Below are positions 13,963 to 15,186 of a DNA stretch of 29,075 nucleotides, piece by piece. The position numbers and the translations under genes were made by a program. Numbering within the stretch: the first letter of the stretch is position 1; each line of letters begins with the position of its first letter. The stretch is from a virus, in IMG/VR virus record IMGVR_UViG_3300031654_000017, positions 1-29,075 of that record; one strand, 5' to 3'. Below the pieces are notes generated by a model, which saw only the letters and a program-made list of their open reading frames with translations, made no database searches and had not been told where the DNA came from.

Positions 13963-14259
13963 ATGACAGAAAAGTATTTGATTAGGGATACAATAAGATT
14001 TACTGCTTCTATTGTCAATCTTGATGGAGAAGTGGATATTCCAGATGTAGTCACCGTTACAGTTTATCAACGAGATGGCACAAAAATATTAGATAAGGCA
14101 AATGCAATAGCATCTGATGTTTTAGGTGAATATTATTATGATTGGAAAATTGATGGGACAGAAGAAACACCATTGGTTAAGGCTTGCGATCTTATTGTGG
14201 TTTGGGATTTTGCTGAACAGAAAAAAAGAATGGAATTTCTTGTGATTCCAGAAGTATAA
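13963..14259 (+). CDS. Small Ig-like/beta-sandwich virion accessory protein
   Basis: 98 residues, ribosome site AAGGAG. The strands (DTIRFTASIVNLDGEVDIPD, VTVTVYQRDGTKILD, GEYYYDWKI, CDLIVVWDF, RMEFLVI) make one compact beta-sandwich, like the N-terminal domains of BppU-type baseplate or head-fibre accessory proteins. Last gene of the late block before the promoter at 14261. Confidence 0.7.
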   Translation: MTEKYLIRDTIRFTASIVNLDGEVDIPDVVTVTVYQRDGTKILDKANAIASDVLGEYYYDWKIDGTEETPLVKACDLIVVWDFAEQKKRMEFLVIPEV

Positions 14260-14260
14260 T

Positions 14261-14289
14261 TTGATAAAGAAGTCTTTATATGGTATAAT
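14261..14289 (+). promoter_or_regulatory. Strong sigma70-type promoter for a small RNA
   Basis: TTGATA (14261-14266), a 17-base spacer, and a perfect TATAAT (14284-14289) preceded by TGG, an extended -10. This is the closest to consensus I see in the window. Predicted start of transcription is about 14296, with no open frame before the terminator ending at 14421. Confidence 0.8.
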
Positions 14290-14295
14290 TATTGA

Positions 14296-14421
14296 AGAAA
14301 AAAGCAAACAGAATTAATGGTCTATTTTTATTTTAAATATATAGACAGGGAAAAGAGAATAATTTCTAAACAAAATTAGACCTTTGTTTAGCTGTTTGCT
14401 ACTCTTTTCCCTGTTTTTTTT
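14296..14421 (+). ncRNA. Autonomous pseudoknotted small RNA (about 125 nt), undescribed
   Basis: Between its own promoter and a U-tract lie four perfect helices: A, AGCAAACAG (14303-14311) with CTGTTTGCT (14392-14400); D, GGTCTA (14319-14324) with TAGACC (14377-14382); B, ACAGGGAAAAGAG (14345-14357) with CTCTTTTCCCTGT (14402-14414); C, CTAAACAAA (14366-14374) with TTTGTTTAG (14383-14391). B crosses A, and D pairs into the loop of C, so the fold is interlocked or the helices are alternatives. The 3' strands of C, A and B are consecutive, suggesting coaxial stacking. No coding frame. It may be a regulatory RNA, a protein-binding RNA, or a switch controlling the HNH gene. Confidence 0.75.
14345..14421 (+). 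terminator. Intrinsic terminator of the small RNA
   Basis: A 13-bp perfect stem, ACAGGGAAAAGAG with CTCTTTTCCCTGT, runs into eight Ts (14414-14421). The loop is unusually long (44 bases) because it contains helix C and the 3' strand of helix A. It separates the small RNA from the HNH gene 15 bases downstream. Confidence 0.75.
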
Positions 14422-14435
14422 ATAGGGGTAAACTT

Positions 14436-15089
14436 ATGGCTGATAGAAGAAAATATTTTAAGGAATATAAAATAAATAATAAAGAAAGAATAATTGAATC
14501 TAATAAACAATATAGAAAAAATAATAAAGAAAAATGTTTAAATGCTAATAAAAAATGGTGGAGTAATAACCCGAACTATATGAAAAAATGGAGAAAGCTT
14601 AACATTGATTATAATAGTAAATATTATGAAGTACATAAAGAGGACATTAAAGAACGGCATAGAAAATATTATAAAGTTCATTGTGAAGAAATAATGAAAT
14701 ATCGTAACAAATATGAAAAGGTTAAACGTAAAACAGATATGAAATATAATCTAAATAATAGAATACGTATATTAATATGGAAATCATTAAAAGGTAATAA
14801 AAATGGTAAGCATTGGGAAAATCTTGTAGGGTACAAATTAGATGATTTAATCAAACATTTAAAAACAACGATGCCAGAAGGCTATACCTGGGAGGATTAT
14901 TTAAAAGGTAGACTTCATATAGACCATAAAATCCCTGTTACTGCTTTTAACTTTACAAGACCAGAACATATCGATTTTAAAAGATGTTGGGGTTTAAAAA
15001 ACCTTCAGTTGCTACCAGTAAAAGAGAATTTAGTTAAACATAATAAATTATCTAAACCATTCCAACCTGCATTAAAACTGGGTTTTTAA
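14436..15089 (+). CDS. HNH homing endonuclease (free-standing)
   Basis: 217 residues. The N-terminal half is Lys/Asn/Tyr-rich repeats (KYFKEYKINNKERI, KYYEVHKEDIKERHRKYYK), probably DNA-contacting helices. Then comes a phage HNH signature: SLKGNKNGKHWENLVGYKL, WEDYLKGRLHIDHKIPVTAF (H-I-D-H core), and WGLKNLQLLPVKENLVKHNK. Such enzymes make site-specific cuts and spread by homing. It is more AT-rich than its neighbours, which fits insertion. It sits just after the pseudoknotted RNA; I see no interrupted gene or group I intron core around it. The weak AGGGGT ribosome site suggests low expression. Confidence 0.85.
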   Translation: MADRRKYFKEYKINNKERIIESNKQYRKNNKEKCLNANKKWWSNNPNYMKKWRKLNIDYNSKYYEVHKEDIKERHRKYYKVHCEEIMKYRNKYEKVKRKTDMKYNLNNRIRILIWKSLKGNKNGKHWENLVGYKLDDLIKHLKTTMPEGYTWEDYLKGRLHIDHKIPVTAFNFTRPEHIDFKRCWGLKNLQLLPVKENLVKHNKLSKPFQPALKLGF

Positions 15090-15113: not shown

Positions 15114-15186
15114 CTTTTCTTTTTCTTTTGTTAGTGTTTTTCTTTTTCTTTTATTATTTTTTTTGTTTTTCTTTTTCTTTTTCTTT
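15114..15186. other. Polypyrimidine (T/C) tract
   Basis: A 73-base run, about 90 percent T or C on the + strand, built of repeated CTTTTT units with few purines. It is not coding. Possible roles: unwinding or triplex-prone DNA, a primase or packaging signal, or a transcript-release region after the HNH gene. It lies at the late/early boundary. Confidence 0.6.

Follow-up and report, generated by a model that had tools for sequence, protein, structure and literature searches.

Between the DGR operon and an HNH endonuclease gene of a phage lies a short segment that carries a promoter, several pairs of complementary arms and a run of Ts, and the question arises whether this segment is an RNA gene in its own right and what such a gene would do at this place. 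The locus belongs to IMG/VR virus record IMGVR_UViG_3300031654_000017, of which positions 1 to 29,075 were analyzed; this whole stretch of 29,075 nt is referred to as the window. A first-pass annotation, made from the sequence alone, had described a TTGATA-17-TATAAT promoter, four perfect helices with an unusual order of arms and eight Ts, and all of these are present as described (Table 1).

Table 1. Features of the RNA element and its surroundings in the window, and related elements in other contigs.
Feature	Position	Strand	Sequence	Remark
-35 box of the element promoter	14261-14266	+	TTGATA	
Extended -10 box	14284-14289	+	(TGG)TATAAT	17-nt spacer from the -35 box
Predicted transcription start	about 14296			
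Helix A, 5' arm	14303-14311	+	AGCAAACAG	outer half of the predicted long stem
Helix D, 5' arm	14319-14324	+	GGTCTA	inner half of the predicted long stem; a T-rich linker comes next
Helix B, 5' arm	14345-14357	+	ACAGGGAAAAGAG	putative terminator stem; crosses A and D
Helix C, 5' arm	14366-14374	+	CTAAACAAA	
Helix D, 3' arm	14377-14382	+	TAGACC	within the 8-nt loop of C; D has 6 bp
Helix C, 3' arm	14383-14391	+	TTTGTTTAG	C has 9 bp
Helix A, 3' arm	14392-14400	+	CTGTTTGCT	A has 9 bp
Helix B, 3' arm	14402-14414	+	CTCTTTTCCCTGT	B has 13 bp
T8 tract	14414-14421	+		intrinsic-terminator tail, predicted 3' end of the RNA
Ribosome-binding site of the HNH gene	14424-14428	+	AGGGG	3' of the T tract, outside the four helices
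HNH endonuclease gene	14436-15089	+		ATG at 14436; 217 aa
G001, contig 3300047201_000122	21008, 25457, 32540			T tracts of three elements
G002, contig 3300044799_000335	15173, 17425, 19050, 24961			T tracts of four elements
G003, contig 3300022858_000738	5763, 9631			T tracts of two elements

An interlocked fold in the window

All four helices are perfect Watson-Crick pairings, and their arms follow each other in the order A-D-B-C-D'-C'-A'-B'. The 3' arms D3, C3 and A3 are contiguous and separated from B3 by 1 nt, so that 14377-14414 forms one almost fully paired strand. As judged from the arm sequences, A and D together make up one long predicted stem, which is crossed by B to give an H-type pseudoknot; C takes up, or competes for, the central part of the 3' strand of this stem. 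Taken by itself, the nested part has a folding energy 4.0 SD below that of its dinucleotide shuffles, none of 200 being as low, and the nested MFE fold omits helices A and D. With a descriptor of all four helices, the element scores 91.5; the best chance scores were 67 in 1.74 Mb of Markov-shuffled window sequence and 71 in 1000 dinucleotide shuffles of the element itself.

Related elements in other phages

Relatives of the RNA were reached through relatives of the HNH protein, by reading the DNA upstream of their genes and scanning it with the descriptor. Beyond the window and its 100% copies, nine further elements were found in three other phage contigs (G001 to G003, Table 1), giving ten elements in four phages, all of them metagenomic. 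The search route through the upstream gene led to one further phage. Searches with the RNA sequence itself returned identical contigs or chance matches only, and pattern searches with the cores of subfamilies II and III and with the promoter of subfamily I gave already known contigs and chance matches only. A covariance-model search for relatives had been proposed with the first-pass annotation; a model built from six elements and applied to 77 loci recovers known members only, with the window as its best further match at the correct place (26.5 bits, E 0.2). The first-pass remark that no phage RNA family of this layout was known is supported by a scan of all 4227 Rfam families, in which the RNA had no family match and a permissive threshold added only chance matches. 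Most of the retrieved loci of the HNH family lack the RNA. In terms of proteins, the window shares 22 matches with G001 and 17 with G002, G001 and G002 share 44, and G003 is more distant.

The strict arm order is found in eight of the ten elements, including that of the window. The other two, G003:5763 and G002:24961, constitute a variant class, in which B contains an additional helix and the partner of D is ambiguous; the descriptor score of G002:24961 (67.0) was reached by 2 of 1000 shuffles. At the variant-class loci L152:5830-5985 and L154:5632-5790, the extra helix within B is accompanied by a retained core, CACGTT-CCTAT ... TCACG, and one of the downstream genes codes for a DUF559/REase-fold protein, while the other, rich in repeats, has CTG as its possible start codon.

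The long stem is a common property of the strict class, since the duplex of A5-D5 with D3-A3 has an energy of -20 to -26 kcal/mol in all eight members, which also have a U-rich linker after D5. In the six elements of subfamily II the A/D stem is nearly continuous, with 17-19 bp, and both C5 and the A-D junction read TAAG or close to it, so that the two compete for C3; helix C is weak in this six-member subfamily. In the window and in G001:21008, the middle of the A/D stem is open and C forms beside the stem. Alternative states, suggested at first pass, are thus plausible in the six relatives and less so in the window.

Promoter, terminator and extent of the RNA

A perfect TATAAT stands upstream of helix A in all ten elements, at a distance of 5-7 nt from the start of the helix in eight and of 13 nt in two; only 8 of 2000 random positions fit this spacing. 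In nine elements a -35 box joins it at a spacing of 17 nt, and the two boxes together match at least 10 of the 12 promoter positions. A T tract follows helix B in every element, and in the elements compared the T tract, a ribosome-binding site and an ORF succeed one another within about 30 nt. From the position of the promoter before helix A and from the terminator it follows that the RNA should start at or near the first helix and end at the terminator, and by its sequence the element is judged to be a discrete RNA gene of about 125 nt.

The putative terminator is unusual. Its 13-bp stem B directly abuts the T8 run, as in intrinsic terminators, but B encloses 44 nt including hairpin C in place of a small loop of 3-8 nt, and the structure is absent from the output of a standard terminator scan. 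The RNA contains a 20-codon ORF (14317-14379) with neither a Shine-Dalgarno sequence nor a counterpart in the related elements, so that the label "non-coding", given to about 125 bases at first pass, is correct. Attenuation by a leader peptide or a translating ribosome is unlikely, as no conserved leader ORF lies upstream and a ribosome site is missing from the ORF at 14317.

Covariation of the helices

The eight strict elements were compared in a helix register, in which every one of the 25 pairs has changed at both partners and all 200 cells are paired. The covariation score is 1.08 compared to 0.34 in shuffles, with none of 500 shuffles reaching it, and pairing falls to 35-52% when the partners are slid by 1-3 columns. 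As the arms of this register were chosen for pairing, these values are partly circular, and an independent check was made on six elements aligned by plain MAFFT, one of which supplied the structure. In this alignment pairing reaches 89.5% and 12 of 24 pairs show changes on both sides, with a covariation score of 0.52 versus 0.27 (0 of 500 shuffles). The plain alignment thus supports helices B, C and D independently; since it shifts A3 by one column between sub-branches, helix A was counted in the helix register only. In subfamily III, D may pair with either of two CACG copies, and its two elements were therefore excluded from the pair counts.

Clear examples are seen between G001:32540 and G002:17425, where GAGAG/CTCTC stands against GGGAG/CTCCC in helix A and GCGG/CCGC against GTGG/CCAC in helix D. 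Among the elements as a whole the helix sequences have turned over almost completely, with the pairing retained. The discrete interlocked RNA proposed at first pass is thus borne out by compensatory changes in homologues and by a promoter in each of the ten elements.

Downstream genes and genomic sites

The HNH protein of the window combines basic N-terminal repeats with a C-terminal HNH motif (LHIDHKIP...NLQLLP); its relatives match the PHROG endonuclease VII and, weakly, HNH_4. Nine of the ten elements precede a proven or probable nuclease gene, and seven are located upstream of HNH genes of the same family. G003:5763 precedes a protein that shares the basic N-terminal repeats and has a different C-terminal part, G002:24961 a DUF559/REase-fold protein, and G002:17425, which keeps all helices, a small protein weakly matching BhlA holins. 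A connection with HNH genes, considered at first pass, is supported, but it is not a strict one, as the holin-like and DUF559/REase-fold cases show.

At the site of G002:17425, which follows an AAA-ATPase gene, the window phage has promoter and gene without RNA. In G002, the end of the orthologue of window gene 13963-14259 is bare, with promoter, RNA and HNH gene all absent. Consequently, the promoter, RNA and HNH gene of the window look like one inserted unit.

Some further observations concern the surroundings of these genes. Shortly past the HNH stop codon, the window has a pyrimidine tract of about 12 TTTTCT units (15115-15186). The load of homing-endonuclease-like genes is high in the other carriers, with eight HNH-profile matches in G001 and five each in G002 and G003; they include a second family related to G002 36323-36970. 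Another HNH gene, in the same phage as genes with the knotted RNA and adjoining them, has its promoter inside an inverted repeat (L017:2741-2797, CTATTCTC/GAGAATAG), which would mask the ribosome site on long transcripts only, as in the I-TevI/mobE type. Two phage contigs (L006:5994 and L061:1816) have in common a block ACAACGTCC-N-ATAATATATC, which is followed by a long hairpin, nested and terminator-like; in L061 block and hairpin lie upstream of an HNH gene. Finally, L149:10076-10204 (IMGVR_UViG_3300047201_000122) matches the Rfam tmRNA model over a length of just 129 nt, at 53.6 bits against a gathering score of 47. This miniature tmRNA-like RNA has full tRNA-like ends (GGGGGCGACAGGTTTCGA ... 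CGGGTTCGATTCCCGACGCCTCCACCA) and lacks most of the mRNA-like part; it received no ARAGORN call, and the match was not repeated for a 401-base stretch at the gathering threshold.

A predicted mode of action

We lean towards the view that the elements are small phage RNA genes of a family not described before, which travel with homing-endonuclease genes, and whose leaky terminator would keep the nuclease scarce. RNA polymerase would use the promoter that the element itself carries, and the transcript would begin at helix A or a few nucleotides upstream of it. In the emerging RNA, the long A/D stem and hairpin C would form first, and B3 would then pair back into the loop between them, closing the interlocked H-type pseudoknot. 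This second stem, B, would abut the U tract and act as an intrinsic terminator. Most transcripts would stop at this point, leaving a compact RNA of about 125 nt whose two ends are held in helices, and a minority would read through into the nuclease gene, with its ribosome site just past the T tract, so that the endonuclease would be made sparingly. The promoter, the helices with their arm order and covariation, the T tract and the place upstream of nuclease genes are shown by the sequence, and from these transcription, termination, leakiness and its purpose are inferred. That the conserved knot, and not a plain hairpin, may be recognized by a protein, either the endonuclease or a host factor, goes one step further.

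The case for premature termination with rare read-through as the most likely course is built on the layout, which is that of RCd22-abiF and type III operons, and on the known restraint of phage homing endonucleases. Deletion of the RNA in RCd22-abiF raised abiF expression 17-fold in an operon of the same logic (PMC12373285), and the same promoter-RNA-terminator-gene logic has been described for type III toxin-antitoxin operons (PMC5086642). Phage homing endonucleases are restrained at several levels, by promoters, terminators and RNA structure (PMC2988022). Several points count against this explanation: leaky termination by itself would call for no four-helix knot, the terminator with its 44 enclosed nucleotides is unusual, only four phages carry the RNA, and helix C is weak in one subfamily. 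Control of a nuclease as the only role is also at odds with G002:17425 and its holin-like gene, unless the nuclease was recently lost.

Comparison with known systems

RCd22, the abiF RNA (RF03085) of a Clostridioides difficile prophage, resembles the present element in its SigA-type promoter, its structured RNA of about 130 nt, its location on a phage and its intrinsic terminator with read-through to the downstream gene, which is predicted here. However, abiF motifs are hairpins in contrast to the interlocked fold, and AbiF is an Abi_2/HEPN RNase; neither a match to the RF03085 model nor a downstream Abi_2 protein was found. Type III toxin-antitoxin systems (ToxIN, CptIN, TenpIN) likewise consist of a single promoter, a pseudoknotted RNA, an intrinsic terminator and a protein gene, in the order observed here. 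Their antitoxin RNA is made of tandem short pseudoknots and their toxin is an endoribonuclease, whereas the phage element has one long knot and a DNA-endonuclease-like protein: there are no tandem repeats in 14290-14421, and the downstream protein has no ToxN, CptN or TenpN domain match.

Control of the T4 type (I-TevI, segB, mobE) restricts a homing endonuclease by RNA structure and a dedicated promoter, as is predicted here. In those cases long transcripts have a hairpin that masks the ribosome site; the present RNA is predicted to end upstream of a ribosome site that lies outside the helices, and termination is the likely means. PeSL cassettes of T4-type phages are mobile units of promoter and terminator at gene boundaries, as in the present case, but are simple stem-loops with a promoter and no pseudoknot.

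In the order of helices, A, B and C correspond to the nested double pseudoknot of HDV-like ribozymes (P1-P2-P3-P3'-P1'-P2' against A-B-C-C'-A'-B'). The short P3 and the J1/4-P4-J4/2 segment are missing, as the equivalent of P3 is far longer (C, 9 bp) and the gap between A3 and B3 measures 1 nt; in addition, there is an extra helix D and no Rfam match. The HEARO or omega RNA of IscB is alike in being structured and in preceding the gene of an HNH-containing nuclease. The protein of the window differs in having 217 aa with only the HNH motif and basic repeats, and no matching domain for the PLMP, RuvC and HNH set of IscB; there is no guide-like segment outside the fold and no HEARO match in the Rfam scan.

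Alternative explanations

The RNA might instead act in trans on the endonuclease, binding the protein as an inhibitor, in the manner of a type III antitoxin or of RCd22 on AbiF, or as a cofactor, with the terminator setting the ratio of RNA to protein. This is possible, though we regard it as rather unlikely. It would fit the retention of the fold despite nearly complete sequence turnover, the locking of both RNA ends in or near helices, the layout common to type III systems and AbiF-RCd22, the divergent RNA that each nuclease has for its own, and the basic N-terminal repeat region, which is common even where the C-terminal part differs (G003:5763). The proteins, however, resemble DNA endonucleases and not ToxN/CptN/TenpN or Abi_2, the RNA has no repeats, most HNH relatives have no RNA, and one RNA lacks a nuclease and another precedes a DUF559 protein. 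More specifically, and unlikely enough to be offered only tentatively, the knot may bind the nuclease via the basic repeats and inactivate or direct it, in a mobile module of RNA and DNA endonuclease in which the U-rich linker possibly forms a triple helix with the stem. Binding of the nuclease or of a host factor is the most interesting candidate answer to why a knot was retained over a plain hairpin.

A free-standing, trans-acting phage small RNA, beside which homing endonuclease genes insert repeatedly, appears quite improbable. The site after the AAA-ATPase gene speaks in its favor: G002 has promoter, RNA and next gene without HNH, and in G001 the HNH gene stands between the RNA and the next gene. 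The RNA's own promoter and terminator would also fit. Yet nine of ten copies lie directly before nuclease genes, at varied genomic places and several per phage, which favors co-mobility, and no conserved single-stranded seed is found across all members.

For a relation to the DGR or a ligand-sensing riboswitch there is hardly any probability left, in spite of the adjacent DGR region and the switch-like situation of six members, in which C5 competes with the A-D junction for C3. The DGR connection raised at first pass was rejected, as the DGR relatives L006-L014, both L006 (RT 95% identical) and the more distant ones, have no RNA and neither RT nor Avd is detectable in the three other carriers; moreover, no strongly conserved unpaired core is common to both main subfamilies. 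An ordinary terminator with a coincidental promoter, in which A and D have no role, is very improbable and strongly disfavored. B with its T tract is indeed terminator-like and the nested MFE fold excludes A and D, but A and D occur in each of the eight strict elements, with compensatory exchange of both partners at every pair, and shuffles fall short of the descriptor score.

Implications

The elements represent a pseudoknotted RNA family that is backed by covariation, has no entry in Rfam and all but escapes sequence search, and they connect this family with homing endonucleases. Control of homing endonucleases by a unit of promoter, RNA and terminator was not found in the open-licence papers searched. 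The arm order together with the promoter in ten of ten elements provides a concrete descriptor for finding more members. Should the nuclease be bound by the RNA as well, this would be a new type of RNA-controlled DNA endonuclease, and a module with such an RNA partner would fall outside the known toxin-antitoxin and IscB/TnpB kinds.
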